Assembly (NCBI GenBank): GCA_030611385.1
Contig: JAUWPV010000002.1
Coordinates: forward strand, 79,433-115,261
Reading direction: 5' to 3'
Source of the DNA: Bacillota bacterium
Lineage (GTDB): Bacteria; Bacillota; Dethiobacteria; DTU022
Length of the DNA: 35,829 nucleotides
Both the position numbers and the translations under genes were made by a program. Of the stretch, positions 8,485-31,991 are shown one piece after another (position 1 is the first letter of the stretch; every line of letters begins with the position of its first letter). The notes under the pieces are model-generated. The model worked only from the letters and a program-made list of their open reading frames with translations, had not been told where the DNA came from and did not search any database.

Positions 8485-9576
8485 ATGAAAATTTTAATCG
8501 GTGGAGGAGGAACAGGCGGTCATATCTACCCGGCGCTTGCCTTGGCCCGTTATGCTCTGGCGGAAGACGACAGCTCGGAGATTCTTTTTGTCGGCAGCGC
8601 CAGCGGGCTTGAGAGTAAGATCGTTCCTTCAGCCGGTTTTCCTCTTTTGATCATCCCGGCGCGTGGTTTTCAGCGCAGCTTCAAGCAGTTGGGTTTAGTA
8701 ATCTGGGATCTTGTCAGAGGCCTGGTGCAATCTGGCAAGATTATAAGCGAATATCAACCGAATGTTGTTCTCGGTACCGGAGGTTATGTTGCCGCACCGC
8801 TGATGATAGCTGCTTTGTTAAGAAGATTACCGGTGGTTATTCATGAACAGAATGCCCTGCCGGGCCTGACCAACCGCTGGCTGGCGCCGTTTGTGAAAAG
8901 GGTATGTCTTTCGTTTGCGGAGACCGAAAAAAGAATGTTTGGCTCCAGTAGGATAGTCTTTACCGGTAACCCGAGGGCAAGCGAAGTTATGAATTTAAGC
9001 CGTGCGGAAGCCTCCCGTTTTTTTGGTTTTGATCCACTGCAAAAGAACATCCTTATCTATGGTGGAAGCCGGGGTGCGCAAAAAATAAACCAGGTAGTTA
9101 CCGCTTACCTTAAAGAAAATCTGCTGCCGGATAGAGTTAACCTGATCTATATTACCGGGGAAATCTATTTCAAGGTTGTAACTGAAGAACTTGGTCAGCT
9201 TCCAAACAGGATAAAACTCTTTCCCTACCTGGACCAAATGCCCGAAGCGCTGGCTGCGGCCGATCTGGCCGTAACCCGTAGTGGGGCGACAACCCTTGCC
9301 GAGATTACAGCTATTGGCGTCCCGGCTTTGTTGGTGCCCTCGCCCAATGTAGTTAACAACCACCAGTATTATAATGCCCGGCTTTTAGCCGATACCGGTG
9401 CAGCAGTTTTAATTGATGAAAAAGATTTTAATCAACTGAAGCTGCAGCAGGAAATAGACAGATTGATCGAAGATCCGGCACTGTTGGAAGAAATGAGTCG
9501 CAACAGCAAGAAAATGGGTGTACCCGGTGCAGCGGCGAAACTCTATCAGTGTCTGCAGGAGGTAGCCTCCTCGTGA
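8485..9576 (+). CDS. murG: UDP-GlcNAc: lipid I N-acetylglucosaminyltransferase MurG
   Basis: Peripheral membrane GT-B enzyme that converts lipid I to lipid II using UDP-GlcNAc. The N-terminal glycine loop GGGGTGGH (residues 6-13) and VLGTGGYVAAP belong to the acceptor side. The C-terminal domain has IYGGSRGAQKIN and TRSGATTLAEITAIGVPALLVPSP for UDP-GlcNAc. A ribosome binding site, GGGGAGAG, precedes ATG 8485. The last 20 nt of the gene also carry the ribosome binding site and hairpin of murB. Confidence 0.97.
   Translation: MKILIGGGGTGGHIYPALALARYALAEDDSSEILFVGSASGLESKIVPSAGFPLLIIPARGFQRSFKQLGLVIWDLVRGLVQSGKIISEYQPNVVLGTGGYVAAPLMIAALLRRLPVVIHEQNALPGLTNRWLAPFVKRVCLSFAETEKRMFGSSRIVFTGNPRASEVMNLSRAEASRFFGFDPLQKNILIYGGSRGAQKINQVVTAYLKENLLPDRVNLIYITGEIYFKVVTEELGQLPNRIKLFPYLDQMPEALAAADLAVTRSGATTLAEITAIGVPALLVPSPNVVNNHQYYNARLLADTGAAVLIDEKDFNQLKLQQEIDRLIEDPALLEEMSRNSKKMGVPGAAAKLYQCLQEVASS
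9557..9571 (+). promoter_or_regulatory. Hairpin enclosing the murB ribosome binding site
   Basis: Bases 9557-9562 read AGGAGG, a perfect ribosome binding site, and after a 3-nt loop (TAG) bases 9566-9571 read CCTCCT, its exact complement. The murB start GTG 9573 follows one base later. Folded mRNA would hide the site until a ribosome finishing murG (stop 9574-9576) melts it, so this is a candidate translational-coupling switch. The fold is seen in the sequence; the regulatory role is inferred. Confidence 0.6.
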
Positions 9577-22161: not shown

Positions 22162-24921
22162 ATGGACTACAGAGATACGCTTAACCTGCCGCAAACTGAA
22201 TTCCCAATGCGCGCAAACCTGCCGGTGCGCGAACCGGAGATGCTTGAAACATGGGCCTCAATGGATATCAATAAACTGGCGCGAGAAAACCGAAAAGGAG
22301 CGCCTCTCTATATACTGCACGACGGGCCGCCCTATGCTAACGGTGATATCCACATGGGTACTGCCCTGAACAAAATTCTCAAGGATATAATTAACAAGTA
22401 TAAAACAATGTGCGGTTTCGATTGCCCCTACACACCGGGTTGGGATACGCACGGTCTGCCGATTGAGTACCAGATCATCAAGACCCAAAAAATAAATCGT
22501 AAAGAGATCTCAGATCTTGAATTCAGGAGGATGTGCCGTGAGTATGCTTTAAAATACGTCGATCTTCAGAAGGGCCAGTTTAAAAGGCTCGGCGTTCGCG
22601 GTGACTGGGATAATCCATATCTGACCCTGAACCCTGTATTTGAAGGGTACCAGATCAAAGTATTCGGGACGATGGCTGATAAAGGCTATATATACAAGGG
22701 CATGCGACCGGTTTACTGGTGTGCAGACTGTGAAACTGCCCTGGCTGAGGCTGAGATAGAATACAGCAGCAAGGTATCCGAATCAATTTATGTCAAGTTT
22801 CCCTTAATTGATGATCAAGGTCTTTTCGGTGGGGTCGAAGATCGCTACTGTCTGATCTGGACTACCACCGCCTGGACTATTCCGGCTAACTTGGCTATAG
22901 CCGTGCATCCTGATCTCAATTACGTTCTTGTTGATGCCGGTTCTGAACAGTACCTTCTGGCCGAAGGTCTGTTCGAAGAAGTTTCCCGGGTAGCCGGTTC
23001 CCGGGAAACTTGGCAAGTTTTAAAGAGAGTTAAGGGCAGTGACCTGGTCGGAATGCGCTGCCGCCATCCTCTGTTTGACCGTGAATCGATCCTGCTGGCA
23101 GGTGAACATGTAACCCTGGAACAGGGTACCGGATGTGTGCATATAGCACCCGGTCACGGCCCTGAAGACTTTGCTATCGGGCAGGCTAATGGCTTACCGG
23201 TTTTAAGTCCTATTGACGACAGTGGTATCTTTACCGAAGAGGCCGGTCTCTATGCTGGCCTGCGCTATGATGTCGGAGGAAGAGCTGTCACTGAAGACCT
23301 GAAAAGTAAAGGTTTACTGCTGAAAGCCATCCCGCTCGAGCACCAGTACCCGAATTGTTGGCGCTGCAAACAGCCGATTTTATTCAGGGCTACCGAGCAG
23401 TGGTTTGCCTCGGTGGAAGGTTTCCGCAAAGAAGCTCTCGCAGCGATAAGCAAAGTAAATTGGACCCCTTCCTGGGGTGAAGAGCGCATCTATAACATGA
23501 TTGCCGAACGGCAGGACTGGTGTATTTCCCGCCAGAGGGTCTGGGGGGTGCCCATACCGATCTTTTACTGTGCAGACTGCAATACCCCGGTGATTAACAA
23601 ACAGACAATTGAAGCGATTAGTGAACTCTTTACCCGTGAAGGATCCGATGCCTGGTTTGCCCGGGAAGCCGCAGATATAATCCCAAAAGGGCTTAGCTGT
23701 CCCCAGTGTGGCCATGGTGAATTCAGGAAAGAAAAAGATACAATGGACGTCTGGTTCGATTCCGGCTCTAGCCATGCTGCAGTTTTGGAGGCCAACCCGG
23801 AGCTGCGCTGGCCGGCCGATCTCTACATAGAAGGCAGCGACCAGTACCGCGGCTGGTTTCATTCATCACTGCTCACAGCTGTGGCAACAAAGGGTGAGCC
23901 GCCCTATCGCGCCGTGGTCAGCCATGGTTGGGTTGTTGATGGCGAAGGTAAAAAGATGTCTAAATCGCTCGGCAATGTGATTGCTCCTGAAAAGATCATC
24001 AAGCAGTACGGGGCAGATATTTTAAGGCTCTGGGTTTCGTCAGCCGATTTCACAAGCGATATCCATCTTTCAGAGGATATTCTCAAACAGTTGATTGAAG
24101 TTTACCGCAAAATACGCAATACCACCCGTTTCCTGTTAGGTAACTGCTCCAGCTTTGACCCGGCCACACATGTGGTCGACTACAATTCAATGGAAGAGAT
24201 AGACCGCTGGGCCCTTTATCGATTGAACAGTCTGGTTGAAAGGGTAACCAGGGCTTATGAAAAATATGAATACCACCAGTTTTTCCATGCCCTTCATAAT
24301 TTTTGCGTTGTCGATATGAGCAGTTTTTATCTTGATGTCATTAAGGATCGGCTTTACTGTTCGGCACCCGATGATCCGGCCCGTCATTCAGCACAAACTG
24401 CATTAATGACCATTCTCGGGCACCTGGTCCTGCTGATGGCGCCGATTCTAACCTTTACTGCTGATGAGATCTGGCAGTATTTGCCCGGAAGAGATAAACA
24501 GAGTGTTCAACTGGCCGATTGGCCTGAGTTAAATCCGGTCTGGGCGGATCAGGAACTTAACAGTCGCTGGCAAACTTTACTGGCAGTGCGTGAAGAGGTA
24601 ACCGGGACTCTGGAACAGGCCCGTAAAGACAAAATAATCGGCGGTTCTCTGGAGGCTTCTGTTACCGTCTGGGCTGATGATCAGATTTACGAGCAGTTAA
24701 ATAACTATGCCGAATATCTGGCTGTTCTCTTTATTGTATCTTCAGCCCGGGTGCTCCGAAGCAGAGGGCAGGACCCTGAGCGCGCTCTTAAGGGGCAGAG
24801 TTGCCCGGTCAGTATATTGGTAGAAAAAGCGGCTGGCCACAAATGCCCGCGCTGCTGGATATTCACCGATTCAGAAGAGGAACTCTGTCCCCGCTGCAGC
24901 ACAGTAGTTGCCCAACTTTAA
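22162..24921 (+). CDS. ileS: Isoleucyl-tRNA synthetase
   Basis: Charges tRNA-Ile with isoleucine and edits misactivated valine. This is the class Ia bacterial type with HMGT (HIGH motif, residues 64-67), PGWDTHGLPIE, the editing domain (WTTTAWTIPANLAIAV), KMSKS (598-602) and a C-terminal zinc site made of CPRC and CPRC pairs. I choose ATG 22162 because AAAGGAG (22148-22154) is 7 nt upstream; ATG 22156 would be only one base from it. The 919-residue length is normal. It is controlled by the T-box leader. Confidence 0.97.
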   Translation: MDYRDTLNLPQTEFPMRANLPVREPEMLETWASMDINKLARENRKGAPLYILHDGPPYANGDIHMGTALNKILKDIINKYKTMCGFDCPYTPGWDTHGLPIEYQIIKTQKINRKEISDLEFRRMCREYALKYVDLQKGQFKRLGVRGDWDNPYLTLNPVFEGYQIKVFGTMADKGYIYKGMRPVYWCADCETALAEAEIEYSSKVSESIYVKFPLIDDQGLFGGVEDRYCLIWTTTAWTIPANLAIAVHPDLNYVLVDAGSEQYLLAEGLFEEVSRVAGSRETWQVLKRVKGSDLVGMRCRHPLFDRESILLAGEHVTLEQGTGCVHIAPGHGPEDFAIGQANGLPVLSPIDDSGIFTEEAGLYAGLRYDVGGRAVTEDLKSKGLLLKAIPLEHQYPNCWRCKQPILFRATEQWFASVEGFRKEALAAISKVNWTPSWGEERIYNMIAERQDWCISRQRVWGVPIPIFYCADCNTPVINKQTIEAISELFTREGSDAWFAREAADIIPKGLSCPQCGHGEFRKEKDTMDVWFDSGSSHAAVLEANPELRWPADLYIEGSDQYRGWFHSSLLTAVATKGEPPYRAVVSHGWVVDGEGKKMSKSLGNVIAPEKIIKQYGADILRLWVSSADFTSDIHLSEDILKQLIEVYRKIRNTTRFLLGNCSSFDPATHVVDYNSMEEIDRWALYRLNSLVERVTRAYEKYEYHQFFHALHNFCVVDMSSFYLDVIKDRLYCSAPDDPARHSAQTALMTILGHLVLLMAPILTFTADEIWQYLPGRDKQSVQLADWPELNPVWADQELNSRWQTLLAVREEVTGTLEQARKDKIIGGSLEASVTVWADDQIYEQLNNYAEYLAVLFIVSSARVLRSRGQDPERALKGQSCPVSILVEKAAGHKCPRCWIFTDSEEELCPRCSTVVAQL

Positions 24922-27265: not shown

Positions 27266-27297
27266 ATAAGAATCGGGAGTTTTCTCCCGGTTCTTAT
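27266..27297 (-). terminator. Strong hairpin, probably the original terminator of the tRNA-Val gene
   Basis: A 14-bp stem (27266-27279 with 27284-27297, one G-U pair) encloses a TTTT loop. Read on the minus strand, the stem is followed by TTTT, whereas on the plus strand no T-run follows. So it best terminates leftward transcription. It directly abuts the duplicated 3' end of tRNA-Val, which suggests that the tRNA gene once ended here before the island separated them. It may also act weakly for rluD. Confidence 0.6.
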
Positions 27298-27334
27298 GGT
27301 GCGCCTGAATGGTTTTGAACCATTGGCCTCCTGC
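27296..27334 (-). repeat. Left att repeat: displaced 3' fragment of tRNA-Val
   Basis: The 39 bases are identical to 31828-31866 and cover the CCA end, acceptor 3' strand, T arm, variable region and 3' side of the anticodon stem. Beyond that it diverges, but the anticodon loop still reads TTGACAT on the minus strand, the usual tRNA-Val(GAC) loop. It lacks the D arm and 5' acceptor strand, so it is not a functional tRNA. Confidence 0.85.
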
Positions 27335-27392
27335 ATGTCAATCTCACGATAGCTATTATCCTATATGGTAACATAACCCTGGAACCCCCTAT

Positions 27393-27429
27393 ATATCGTG
27401 TAATATTTAATATTAAAATTACACGATAT
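27393..27429. repeat. 37-nt near-perfect palindrome
   Basis: Arms ATATCGTGTAAT (27393-27404) and ATTACACGATAT (27418-27429) are perfect complements. The 13-nt centre is itself a 12-nt palindrome, TTTAATATTAAA, plus one A. No T-run follows, so it is not a standard terminator. It lies 60 bp inside the left island end; a binding site for an element protein (recombinase, replication or partition) is a guess. Confidence 0.75.
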
Positions 27430-27542
27430 GGTCTTCAAAGGCACTGTATCATCTCTCATCTTTAGTATAAAGGGTGTATAAAATGATGTGTTTTCCTTAA
27501 TGCCAGATGATGCAACATAAGATTAAAAAATCTTGAGAAGGT

Positions 27543-27797
27543 ATGTTTATTGCTTTCAGGCTTAAACACGGCAGGGATGATGACTCGATCGGTTGGCTTG
27601 CCAGCATGAGTGTAGACGATCGCTTTTGCTATATCAGGGGAATCCTAAAAAGTGGCTTGTATGCGACTTTATTAGCGGAGCCGATTTCCAATCTCGGGTA
27701 CGATTTTAAGATTGTTCATTAACAGGCAGAGGAAAAGAAGCAGGAGATCAGCGAAGCCGATCTTGAAACCGCCCTGGGTAAATGGCTTAATGTCTAA
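27543..27797 (+). pseudogene. Decayed small mobile-element gene with internal stop
   Basis: ATG 27543, with GAGAAGG just upstream, opens a 59-codon frame beginning MFIAFRLKHGRDDDSIGW that stops at TAA 27720. The same frame continues for 24 more codons (QAEEKKQEISEADLETALGK, then WLNV) to TAA 27795. The pattern of FRLK, then DDDSIGWLASM, then YIRGILKSGL resembles short plasmid or conjugative-element proteins of ribbon-helix-helix/ParR-like type. That similarity is from memory and is tentative. One substitution at the first TAA would restore 84 residues. Confidence 0.45.
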
Positions 27798-27868
27798 CGG
27801 GAGTAAAATAATATAAAATTATGCGTATGGAAATAATCAATTATTGGCAGGTAACTTTAAAATAATAA

Positions 27869-27958
27869 CGAATTCAGAAGATCGTATCTGATCTTTCGCA
27901 CTCCAACTACTGGTACAGAGATGATGTCAAGGTAAGACCACATCCGCATGTTAAATGA
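27869..27958 (+). pseudogene. C-terminal coding fragment of unknown gene
   Basis: A short open frame with protein-like character (IQKIVSDLSHSNYWYRDDVK, then VRPHPHVK) ends at TGA 27956 but has no start codon, being closed upstream by TAA TAA. It may be the tail of a deleted gene. I do not recognise the family. Confidence 0.25.
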
Positions 27959-27959
27959 T

Positions 27960-27973
27960 AAGGATGGCTCCTT
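27960..27973 (+). promoter_or_regulatory. Small hairpin over the glycan synthase ribosome binding site
   Basis: AAGGA (27960-27964) pairs with TCCTT (27969-27973) around TGGC, immediately before ATG 27974. The left arm is the likely ribosome binding site, so the fold could limit translation. The stem is only 5 bp. Confidence 0.35.
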
Positions 27974-30241
27974 ATGGCGGAAAGGCAAGAAATTGTGGGG
28001 ATGTATAAAAGATTTATACTTATTGCAGCAACGGTAAGCGCTCTTATATACATAGGATGGAGAGCTTATTTTACTATTCCTTTTGGATTTGGTACGGTTG
28101 CGGTTATCTGTGGGATAACTCTGCTCTTAGCTGAAATGAGCGATATGTTTGAAAATATGGTTAGCTACAAAAATATCAAAAAAGTTGAATTTCCCGTTAA
28201 ACCAACTATAAAAACTGAGAAATATCCTCATATTGATGTCTTTATCACCACATGTAATGAAACGGCGGAGCTTTTATTCAAAACGATAAACGGTTGCCTT
28301 CATATGGATTATCCTTATAAAAGCAAGGTGCATATTTATCTTTGTGATGACGGTAATCGTTTAGAAATGAAAGAGCTGGCTGGCCAAATGGGGATTAATT
28401 ACCTGGCCCATACTGATAATCAAGATGCAAAGGCCGGCAATTTAAATAATGCCCTGAAGAATTCGTCTTCACCATATGTTGCTACTTTGGATGCTGATAT
28501 GATCCCGAAACATAATTTTCTGATGGAAACAATCCCCTACTTGATGGTAAAAGAATTTGTAGGATTTGTTCAAACGCCACAGGATTTCTACAACCCTGAC
28601 CTTTTTCAATACTACCTTTATTCTGAACGCAGGATTCCCAATGAGCAGGCGTACTTCTTTCACTATGTTCAACTTTCACGAAACCAGGCAAACGCTGCAA
28701 TCTACTGCGGTTCCAACGCGATAATCGCAAGGAAAGCGCTCGAAGATGTTGGAGGCTTTGTTACAGGAGTACTAACAGAGGATTACGCAACAGGGATGGC
28801 CATTCAAAGTAAAGGTTATATAAGTTATGCTATTAACAAGATTGTTGCTTCAGGTTTGGCGCCAGTCGACTTGAAAAGCTTAATCAGGCAAAGGCAGCGA
28901 TGGGCCAGGGGGTGCATACAAAGTGGTAGGAAGCTACACTTTTTGTTTCGCAAAGATCTGTCTTGGGGCCAGAAAATCCAATATATGGCTTCCACAACCT
29001 ATTGGTATACGGGTGTAAAAAGGTTCATCTATATCACGACGCCGATTCTGTTTTCTGTATTTGGTGTTGTTGTATTGAAAACATCGTGGGTCGCAGTACT
29101 TATTTTTTGGTTGCCTATGTATTTATTTGGCGCAGCTAAACTTAAAATGCTCTCACAAAATACAAGAAGCACACGTTGGAATAATATTATAGAAACGATT
29201 ATCTTTCCATCCCTACTAACTTCAGTTCTTTTGGAGACATTTTATATTTCCAAGAGGAAGTTCGAAATTACAAAAAAAGGCAAAGAGGATGCAGGTGATC
29301 GTACTTACCATTTATTACAAGCAATGCCTCATATTATTTTGTCAGTATTGTCTGTTGTAGGCATTTATATATGCTTTACGATGATTTTCAATACTGGTTC
29401 ATTGATCTACCTAATAGTTTTGTTTTGGTTATCTGTAAACTTCTACAACCTGGTAATGGCAATTTTCTTTATGTTCGGAAGAAAGATGTTTCGAAATAAT
29501 GAGAGAATCAGGGTTGAAGTACCCTGTAAATTAGATGATGGTCGCAGGGTAATCGATTGTTTCACCTTTGACCTTTCCGATACTGGGTTTTCTGTTTCAA
29601 ACGAATTTCCTCTCTATATCCCCGACAATACTCCAAGTAAAGTATCTTTGAAGACAGATCATTATCAGTGTGATTTTGAAGCCGAGGTTGTTCGTGTTGT
29701 TTCTAAAGGTTCAATTATTGGCAAACAGAATCGTTGGCTTTACGCCTTCAACATTACTGATATCAGTGAAGAAGATAAGAAACAGTACTATCAGATAATA
29801 TACGACCGTGATTTTGATTTACCTAGAAGTTTAGATCGTCACGTAAGAGTATTTGGCGATTTGAGAATTAATGTAGTGCAGAGAACCCAGAAGCTGCTGG
29901 ATCATAACAGGAAGTTACCCAGGGTAATCCTGGAAAAAACCCTTGCCACCAGGGAAAATAATTCTCTAATTCTTGCAAAATTTAATTACGATTATGCCGA
30001 AGTAAAGACTTTTGATCAAAGAGATTTCCCACCAAATATATCTTTCATAGCAGCTGATAACATTGATATAATTTGCACTTATGTTCGAATAATAGAAGTA
30101 CGTAAGAAAAGTCCTAAGGTTAAACCAGTCTTGTTGCAAACAACTGCTCTATATAAAATCGAAAATAAAGATGAGCTTGCCTACTCAAAAGCATTTCAGG
30201 CTCTGCTGGACGAATGGATCAACGAATATGATCGCAGTTAA
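27974..30241 (+). CDS. BcsA-like processive glycosyltransferase with PilZ domain
   Basis: Membrane GT2 enzyme expected to polymerise and export a beta-glucan (cellulose-type) chain from UDP-glucose under c-di-GMP control. Two N-terminal membrane spans (about residues 12-54) precede the GT-A domain with all processive motifs: CDDGNR (124-129), DAD (173-175), TED (268-270) and QRQRW (306-310). Several membrane spans follow (about 345-500). The PilZ domain has R507-x-x-x-R511 and D533-L-S-D-T-G538, the complete c-di-GMP signature. A 140-residue C-terminal extension after PilZ is unrecognised. The gene is A+T-richer than the dcw genes and lies in the tRNA-bounded island. Sugar specificity is inferred from the neighbouring GH5. 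Confidence 0.88.
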   Translation: MAERQEIVGMYKRFILIAATVSALIYIGWRAYFTIPFGFGTVAVICGITLLLAEMSDMFENMVSYKNIKKVEFPVKPTIKTEKYPHIDVFITTCNETAELLFKTINGCLHMDYPYKSKVHIYLCDDGNRLEMKELAGQMGINYLAHTDNQDAKAGNLNNALKNSSSPYVATLDADMIPKHNFLMETIPYLMVKEFVGFVQTPQDFYNPDLFQYYLYSERRIPNEQAYFFHYVQLSRNQANAAIYCGSNAIIARKALEDVGGFVTGVLTEDYATGMAIQSKGYISYAINKIVASGLAPVDLKSLIRQRQRWARGCIQSGRKLHFLFRKDLSWGQKIQYMASTTYWYTGVKRFIYITTPILFSVFGVVVLKTSWVAVLIFWLPMYLFGAAKLKMLSQNTRSTRWNNIIETIIFPSLLTSVLLETFYISKRKFEITKKGKEDAGDRTYHLLQAMPHIILSVLSVVGIYICFTMIFNTGSLIYLIVLFWLSVNFYNLVMAIFFMFGRKMFRNNERIRVEVPCKLDDGRRVIDCFTFDLSDTGFSVSNEFPLYIPDNTPSKVSLKTDHYQCDFEAEVVRVVSKGSIIGKQNRWLYAFNITDISEEDKKQYYQIIYDRDFDLPRSLDRHVRVFGDLRINVVQRTQKLLDHNRKLPRVILEKTLATRENNSLILAKFNYDYAEVKTFDQRDFPPNISFIAADNIDIICTYVRIIEVRKKSPKVKPVLLQTTALYKIENKDELAYSKAFQALLDEWINEYDRS

Positions 30242-30263
30242 ATCCAACAAGAAGATATCCAGA

Positions 30264-30579
30264 TTATTGGTTAAGTGGGTTTAAATAAGCTTTTGAATTT
30301 AACTCTTCAGGGTTAGCCTCCGGAGTAAACTGATGTTTAGGTTTAGGGCCCGGAAATTGAGATAGAAAAATATCATAGGTTTTGATCTGGGCGAAGGCGG
30401 TGATCCTCTTAGTCCGATGGGATGGTTTTATAATTAATTTCAAAAGAATATTGTATTACCACAGAGGAGAAGGCAGACAGTTCGACTTTTAACCGCTTCG
30501 ATTTTATAATGCCGGTTACTTCTATGTTCGACTTTGGAATATCCACTTCAACTTTTTCCTCATCCAGTAAATCGGCCAT
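30264..30579 (-). pseudogene. Frameshifted small gene of unknown function, minus strand
   Basis: On the minus strand ATG (30579-30577) opens 56 codons, MADLLDEEKVEVDIPKSNIE onward, ending at TAA 30411-30409. The next frame continues without interruption as RITAFAQIKTYDIFLSQFPG and PKPKHQFTPEANPEELNSKA to TAA 30266-30264. A single-base change near 30412-30420 would join them into about 105 residues. Both halves look protein-like, with charged and hydrophobic residues alternating. I do not recognise a family. It fills most of the gap between the glycan synthase and the GH5 gene, which run on the other strand. Confidence 0.45.
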
Positions 30580-30631
30580 TATCTATTTTACCAACTTATG
30601 ATAAAATCTTGATTTAACAGGAGGAAAGTAA

Positions 30632-31690
30632 ATGAAATGGAAACATATCCTCTTAGTATACATTCTTATATTTATTGCTTTTGCTGGCTTATGGCATGAG
30701 CTGTCGTATCGCCTTACTATAAAAAAAGGTGAGCTGCTTATTCCGCTGGGATCGAACGCGGTTTCCGCTTTTTGCAGTGAGCTGCCTTTTAAAAGGTGCA
30801 TAAGCATTGGAAATGCTCTTGAGGCGCCAAAAGGTATCTCCTGGAATGTGCAGATGGACAAGCGCTACTTTGATTTAATAAAAGCCGCCGGATTTGACAG
30901 TGTCAGAATTCCTGTTAGATTTTCTGACTATGCAAAAGAGAACCCGGGTTATCAGATAGAAGAAGAGTTTATGTCTGAAGTTGACGGATACGTAGATTAT
31001 GCTCTGGAACTGGGACTTACTGTAATTTTGGACTTACATCACTTCGAGGAACTTATGGAATATCCTTTGGAGTATAGTCGTTGTTTTCTTGCAATATGGG
31101 AGCAGCTATCTTTGCGCTATAAAGATTATCCTCCCGAACTTATTTTCGAGCTACTCAATGAGCCCCAGAAAAACCTAAAGGATGATGTATGGAATAAATT
31201 GTTGGCAGAAGCGGTATTTGTTGTTAGGAAAGAGAATCCGGACAGATTTTTGATAATTGGCCCCGATAACTATAATTCACTCCATCGCCTGCAAAACTTG
31301 AAGCTGCCGGATGACAAAAAGATCATTATTTCAATTCACTATTATGCTCCTAATGATTTTGCATTTCAAGGAGATCCATATCACGAAAGTTACAAAGAGC
31401 TTAGTAATATTCCGTGGGGGAAACCCGACGAAATCAAGAGACTGAAAGATGATTTTCAAAAAGCAGCTAGTTGGGCGAAAGCCAATGATCGGCAGGTCTT
31501 TCTTGGTGAATTCGGGGTGAATCGAAGCGCGCCTGCACAATATCGAGAATTGTGGATCAAAATGGTAAGAGAACATGCAGAGGAAGTTGATTTTGCATGG
31601 GGTTTCTGGGAGTTTTGCTCTAACTTTGGAATTTATGATTCCAATACAGATAAATGGGATGAAAAATTAATGGAGGCCTTGATTGATTGA
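30632..31690 (+). CDS. Membrane-anchored GH5 family endo-glucanase
   Basis: Glycoside hydrolase family 5 enzyme (retaining, (beta/alpha)8 barrel), probably a beta-1,4-glucanase. An N-terminal uncleaved anchor (residues 5-21) places it on the outer face of the membrane. All GH5 residues are present: R92 (VRIP), H136-H137 (LDLHH), N176-E177-P178 with the acid/base glutamate, H236-Y237, nucleophile E293 in LGEFG, and W326. AGGAGG (30619-30624) sits 7 nt before ATG 30632. It lies 390 nt after the PilZ glycan synthase and likely trims or releases its product, as CcsZ (GH5) does beside clostridial cellulose synthase and BcsZ in proteobacteria. Confidence 0.9.
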   Translation: MKWKHILLVYILIFIAFAGLWHELSYRLTIKKGELLIPLGSNAVSAFCSELPFKRCISIGNALEAPKGISWNVQMDKRYFDLIKAAGFDSVRIPVRFSDYAKENPGYQIEEEFMSEVDGYVDYALELGLTVILDLHHFEELMEYPLEYSRCFLAIWEQLSLRYKDYPPELIFELLNEPQKNLKDDVWNKLLAEAVFVVRKENPDRFLIIGPDNYNSLHRLQNLKLPDDKKIIISIHYYAPNDFAFQGDPYHESYKELSNIPWGKPDEIKRLKDDFQKAASWAKANDRQVFLGEFGVNRSAPAQYRELWIKMVREHAEEVDFAWGFWEFCSNFGIYDSNTDKWDEKLMEALID

Positions 31691-31827
31691 GACATACTTC
31701 CATGATTCATATAAGTGTCAGGGAGACGGCATGCTGCTGTGTGACATTCTCTTCTCCTAAAAGATGTAAATCGGGATATTCGTGATGTTTTTAAAAGTAT
31801 GCACACCCGAAAAACCCTTTAAATTCA
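31691..31827. other. Gene-free island right end
   Basis: This stretch between the GH5 stop and the tRNA 3' end shows no open frame, terminator with a T-run or obvious repeat. It is the sequence the element brought next to the tRNA. Confidence 0.3.
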
Positions 31828-31866
31828 ATGGTGCGCCTGAATGGTTTTGAACCATTGGCCTCCTGC
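31828..31866 (-). repeat. Right att repeat inside the intact tRNA-Val gene
   Basis: The 39 bases are identical to 27296-27334 and form the 3' part of the functional tRNA. The crossover lay somewhere in this identity block. Confidence 0.85.
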
Positions 31867-31903
31867 GTGTCGAGCAGGCGCTCTCCCCCTGAGCTACAGG
31901 CGC
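31829..31903 (-). tRNA. tRNA-Val(GAC) with encoded CCA and unusual C33
   Basis: The minus strand folds as a complete 75-nt cloverleaf: acceptor GCGCCTG/CAGGCGC, D arm GCTC/GAGC, anticodon stem CCTGC/GCAGG, T arm AATGG/CCATT with loop TTCAAAA, A73 and a genomically encoded CCA. The anticodon loop is TCGACAC, so the anticodon is GAC (valine) but position 33 is C instead of the nearly universal T. It is the integration target of the island to its left. Confidence 0.9.
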
Positions 31904-31920: not shown

Positions 31921-31950
31921 CATTTTAGCATTATCTTGATCGTGATGTCA
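31921..31950 (-). promoter_or_regulatory. Promoter of tRNA-Val
   Basis: On the minus strand TTGACA, an 18-nt spacer ending in TGC, then TAAAAT give a near-consensus extended -10 promoter about 17 bp upstream of the tRNA 5' end. It shows that the right-hand tRNA copy is the expressed one. Confidence 0.75.
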
Positions 31951-31991
31951 AGGTAATGGCGGTTTCAAATCTATAAATATTTCTCTTTCTG

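Follow-up and report, generated by a model that had tools for sequence, protein, structure and literature searches.

A probable decayed tRNA-Val island related to parM-parR-integrase elements keeps a glucan synthase/endoglucanase cargo in a Bacillota genome

A 35,829-nucleotide stretch of DNA from a Bacillota bacterium (the whole stretch analysed, hereafter the window) contains the 3' part of a tRNA-Val gene twice, once inside the complete gene and once about 4.5 kb to its left. Is the DNA between the two copies an inserted element, and if so, what kind of element was it and what has become of it? It was proposed in a preliminary description, made from the letters alone, that a small genomic island without an integrase had been inserted at the 3' end of the tRNA-Val gene. 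The features that bear on this question are the following.

27274..27289, minus strand: intrinsic terminator of the original tRNA-Val gene (terminator scan), directly after the CCA of the displaced fragment
27296..27341, minus strand: attL, displaced tRNA-Val 3' part (gene positions 33-75) plus two bases, TT on the minus strand
27393..27429, no strand assigned: A+T-rich palindrome near the left end of the island, next to attL (DNA fold -10.5 kcal/mol, z -4.0)
27543..27797, plus strand: putative parR-like ribbon-helix-helix pseudogene with an in-frame TAA at 27720-27722 (homology to L134:8882-9130)
27974..30241, plus strand: CcsA/BcsA-like GT2 glucan synthase with a C-terminal PilZ domain, 755 aa (Pfam and TIGR03030 matches)
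30632..31690, plus strand: GH5 endoglucanase closest to CcsZ, 352 aa (PF00150, E 8.9e-49)
31828..31903, minus strand: attR, the regenerated intact tRNA-Val(GAC) with C at canonical position 33, plus-strand position 31872 (ARAGORN)
31922..31951, minus strand: promoter of the intact tRNA-Val, TTGACA-18-TAAAAT with an extended -10 (consensus scan, 11/12)

The two copies of the direct repeat (27296-27339 and 31828-31871, spacing 4532) are identical at 43 of 44 positions and the first 39 are exact, so that the 39-bp exact copy described earlier is now part of a longer match. ARAGORN and Rfam place a complete tRNA-Val(GAC) gene on the minus strand at 31829-31903, and the right copy forms its 3' part. 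The duplicated stretch runs from the anticodon (gene position 33) to the CCA end; the intact gene and the displaced 3' fragment lie in the same orientation. The two extra TT bases of attL match U32-U33 of the relatives' alleles. Elsewhere in the window the best 44-mer match is 23/44, and dinucleotide shuffles (n=10) gave best matches of 22-27/44, which excludes chance as the source of the repeat. The preliminary description had suggested a search of the genome for further copies of the att core and of the palindrome, which its fold shows to be real. BLAST found the att core in two copies only, both at the island ends, and no second copy of the palindrome.

Which of the two copies is the original 3' end can be read from the terminator. 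The hairpin that adjoins the displaced fragment has a folding energy of -15.5 kcal/mol, while the sequence after the intact tRNA-Val gene folds at just -3.8 kcal/mol and the terminator is missing there. In relatives of other genera, a hairpin terminator of -7 to -22 kcal/mol was observed within a few bases of the tRNA-Val 3' end in 11 out of 11 cases. Since the terminator lies beside the displaced fragment and not beside the intact gene, the fragment is the original 3' end and the 4.5 kb in between is the insertion. The intact gene has retained its own promoter (31951-31922).

The composition of the inserted DNA differs from that of its surroundings. The GC content is 0.383 for the island, 0.377 for the bcsA-like gene and 0.402 for the GH5 gene, compared to 0.483 +/- 0.024 (minimum 0.430) across the remaining genes in the window, in agreement with the A+T-richness described earlier. 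The content between the repeats is absent from the relatives, as judged by the synthase: no real homologue of it turned up in 99 of them, and strong homologues (E<=1e-60) were found in just 6 of the 397 other genomes of the phylum sample. This absence and the deviant GC bear out the view that the biosynthetic module is foreign to its neighbourhood. No donor was found for the glucan genes, the nearest relatives of the synthase being CcsA-like proteins of other Firmicutes at 44-48% identity; the synthase and the att core gave no match in viral contigs.

The flanks of the tRNA-Val locus were also examined in relatives. The tRNA-Val(GAC) gene lies close to the same GTPase gene in 14 same-family relatives, with LemA next in most of them, and ten of the closest share the orientation seen in the window. 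The right side (tRNA-Val/GTPase/LemA) is uninterrupted in the relatives; the left neighbour differs from that of the window in all of them and is mmgE/prpD-like, alr-like (alanine racemase-like), rpe-like or another gene. An uninterrupted rluD/terminator/tRNA-Val/GTPase order had been expected in related genomes, and this expectation failed: rluD is the left neighbour in none of those examined. In two relatives (G014 and G002) rluD is followed by rqcH, yicC, gmk, dfp, priA, def, fmt, rsmB, prpC, prkC, rsgA and rpe, as gene names recognised from sequence and in part library-tested; this block leads on to tRNA-Val in G014 but not in G002. Because none of the relatives examined has rluD to the left of tRNA-Val, we regard the rluD junction as a separate rearrangement in this lineage. 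An assembly error is less likely, the assembly being a draft of 54 contigs in which a join error at the rluD side is possible. The expected rluD neighbour, rqcH, lies at the end of another contig, so that the other side of the rearrangement is a contig end. A search of this genome without a positive control found no MmgE/PrpD-like homologue.

The same genome carries other elements at tRNA genes. In one of them (C14:8636-22982; L141, L142), tRNA-Leu(CAA) at 8636-8721 is separated by 14.2 kb from a displaced 56-nt fragment at 22927-22982, and the DNA in between encodes parM-parR-integrase, a D5-type primase, a DNA methylase and a terminase gene that seems to be split in two. The element has no recognised capsid or tail genes and could be phage-satellite-like. 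A second one (C48:90727-100701; L148, L149) begins with tRNA-Arg(ACG) at 90727-90804 and has a displaced 47-nt fragment over a distance of 9.9 kb, an integrase gene 72 bp from the tRNA, and type I restriction-modification-like genes. All three duplications (Val, Leu and Arg) extend from the anticodon loop to the CCA end, and the anticodon-centred class is the larger of the two att classes of Islander (PMC4383910). The parR gene of the tRNA-Leu element is directed toward the end with the intact tRNA, and the cargo there is found between the integrase and the tRNA; in the island the parR remnant has the same sense and bcsA-gh5 occupies the corresponding cargo slot. In a further stretch (C47:15472-29874; L146, L147), a 14.3-kb region is flanked on either side by a complete tRNA-Gly(TCC) gene, the two being identical, and an integrase lies next to one; its terminase-like and methylase genes resemble the gene content of the tRNA-Leu element. 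In relatives, same-family integrases adjoin tRNA genes of many kinds. Of 29 related integrase loci from other genomes, none is at tRNA-Val and about two thirds adjoin a different tRNA. The insertion of 4.5 kb of foreign DNA into the 3' end of the tRNA-Val gene thus has four independent lines of support: the duplicated 3' half; the displaced conserved terminator; the foreign composition together with the lack of the synthase in relatives; and the two elements of the same geometry in this genome.

We then looked inside the island for what is left of its mobility genes. Pfam searches of the ORFs, tblastn with four integrases of this genome as queries and tblastx against its resident elements all failed to detect a recombinase, in accordance with the preliminary description, and no remnant of parM or an integrase was detected either. 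Islander counts an island as putatively active when an integrase gene lies inside it, and without one this island is classed as decayed. Of the "broken small genes" described earlier, one holds up, the ORF at 27543-27797 with its in-frame stop codon, and the other small ORFs are unsupported (the antisense ORF at 30409-30579, for example, has no PHROG match). The pseudogene shows 38% identity over 39 aa to an intact 82-aa parR-like ORF of the same genome (L134:8882-9130), with a Smith-Waterman score of 64 against a maximum of 47 in 2000 shuffles, and both were recovered in this genome by profile search. By its sequence pattern, its product looks like a ribbon-helix-helix protein. The intact ORF sits between a ParM-type actin gene (PF17989; ALP_N) and a gene for a tyrosine integrase (PF00589) with SAM-like and arm-binding domains, and it is for this position that we use the name ParR. 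The pseudogene has no match in Pfam, NCBIfam, PHROGs or plasmids. Two phage matches (E 0.7) were discarded, and an IMG/VR match (L128) was dropped because its frame is unrelated and its neighbours are head and tail genes of a phage. In two relatives (G062 and G031; L126, L127), MORN-repeat proteins that adjoin XerC-like recombinases carry the same RHH-like domain at the C-terminus. In the island the broken parR-like ORF stands alone, with neither parM nor integrase flanking it, and the island would be a relative, and no complete member, of the parM-parR-integrase family, to which it is linked by one 84-codon pseudogene with 39 alignable residues.

The cargo has kept its catalytic motifs. The synthase scores 374 bits against TIGR03030, under the equivalog cut-off of 699, and its synthase motifs and its c-di-GMP motifs are all present (DDG, DAD, TED, QRQRW, RNNER, DLSDTG and FEITKK), which cover the D,D,D,QxxRW pattern of GT2 and the RxxxR and D/NxSxxG pattern of a C-terminal PilZ domain. 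The adjacent GH5 gene is of the CcsZ kind: its best PDB match is 6UJE (E 1.7e-99), deposited as CcsZ (PMC7710045), and its catalytic motifs NEP and GEFG are intact. A hydrophobic N-terminal segment of the GH5 protein is likely a membrane anchor. No ccsB, ccsH or ccsI was found among the ORFs of 27340-31828; some or all of them are present in homologue loci elsewhere. One other genome (G470) likewise has a GH5 gene immediately after a CcsA-like gene, inside a larger cluster with MBOAT-like and DHHW-like genes. Ten GGDEF matches in this genome make a signal for the PilZ-controlled synthase plausible. The cargo would be a two-gene beta-glucan module and the polymer probably cellulose. The product could instead be a mixed-linkage glucan, between which and cellulose the sequence does not discriminate; the mixed-linkage synthase RiGT2 of Romboutsia has the same motifs (PMC10374906).

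Taken together, the evidence makes it very likely that this tRNA-Val island is decayed, is related to the parM-parR-integrase elements and has kept its glucan synthase/endoglucanase cargo. A tyrosine recombinase would have inserted a mobile element into the one tRNA-Val(GAC) gene, in its anticodon-loop/3' half. The attP of the element may have supplied a replacement 3' half, which left the host with a complete tRNA gene under its own promoter and pushed the old 3' half and the terminator 4.5 kb away. The element would have belonged or been related to the parM-parR-integrase elements that are still intact in this genome. The integrase, parM and nearly all else may have been lost later, leaving a broken parR beside attL. 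The two-gene cargo, a PilZ-type (c-di-GMP-responsive) beta-glucan synthase and a membrane-anchored GH5 protein, would have been kept, presumably as a useful extracellular polysaccharide module. In this account we infer the recombinase type, the order of the losses, the arrival of the cargo with the element and the polymer made.

The preliminary description had left the choice between a decayed element and a satellite mobilised by another element. Of these two, decay is favoured over the satellite because a ParR-like pseudogene related to the parM-parR-integrase cassette remains next to the left att. A minimal "hitcher" that never had its own integrase and was moved as a two-att cassette by that of a helper would account for an island without an integrase and with intact catalytic motifs in the cargo, and the genome does hold other integrase genes, three of them beside or near tRNA genes. 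We consider it improbable: the broken parR beside attL is of the kind that lies directly upstream of an integrase in this genome, which is to be expected if an integrase was lost and not if there never was one, and the tRNA-Val core is used by none of the resident elements, which sit at tRNA-Leu, tRNA-Arg and tRNA-Gly. Even less credible is a local tandem duplication of the terminator and the tRNA 3' part that was later split by an unrelated insertion of the glucan genes. Such an event has a precedent in one relative, G023 (L058:10720-10900), in which the terminator and 34 nt of the tRNA-Val 3' end are found in a 92-bp tandem duplication without an island. It would, however, leave a terminator beside both copies, and the intact gene in the window has none; it would need a second, independent insertion; and the duplicated part spans the anticodon loop to the CCA end, as in the two integrase-bearing elements of the genome.

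The regenerated tRNA has one unusual base. The intact tRNA-Val(GAC) reads CCTGC-TCGACAC-GCAGG, with C at canonical position 33, and T33 is found in all 12 other tRNA-Val(GAC) alleles from relatives. U33 is present in 58 of 59 distinct tRNAs of the loci examined, and in 38 of the 39 tRNAs found in 87% of this genome; of all the tRNAs examined, this is the only one without it. In the displaced fragment (minus strand, TTGACATGC) the ancestral T33 is retained, and position 38 is different. This is most simply read as a crossover immediately 5' of position 33: C33 would have come from the element, and the discarded fragment would have drifted. C33 by later mutation or consensus error is possible. 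In the surveyed 87% of the genome tRNA-Val(GAC) is single-copy, and tRNA-Val(UAC) and tRNA-Val(CAC) are also there. We suggest only tentatively that an attP with a C33 3' half changed the U-turn base in the only tRNA-Val(GAC) of the host, and that the cell gets by with an elongator tRNA carrying C33. This would be tolerated because the codons are covered by tRNA-Val(UAC), or because C33 is edited or compensated; the fragment would then be the record of the old U33. ARAGORN also predicts a tRNA-Pyl (CUA) in this genome (L185:711-781, contig C6), and a tRNA-SeC is predicted as well.

The locus is a clear example of a tRNA-targeted element worn down to useful cargo: the mobility genes are gone, the polysaccharide module is kept and the att scar can still be read, and intact sister elements elsewhere in the genome serve as a yardstick. 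A decayed tRNA-Val island with cargo is an already known kind of element, and the interest lies in the completeness of the evidence in one genome and in the C33 tRNA, which, if real, would show concretely that an integrating element has changed a base of its target tRNA that is normally invariant. Compared to the clostridial ccsZABHI locus (PMC7710045), the island shares a CcsA-like GT2/PilZ synthase adjoining a GH5 gene with CcsZ as best PDB match, but it lacks ccsB, ccsH and ccsI and its gene order is A-Z. With the tRNA-Leu element it has in common the geometry, a same-family parR-like gene toward the intact tRNA and cargo next to the tRNA, whereas that element is 14.2 kb with parM, integrase, D5-type primase and terminase, and the island has a broken parR and different cargo. 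Set against the Islander islands (PMC4383910), it is just 4.5 kb and has no integrase gene, for which the Islander filter would reject it; like them, it carries foreign cargo flanked on one side by the regenerated, intact tDNA and on the other by a directly oriented displaced 3' fragment, and its crossover lies in the anticodon loop.
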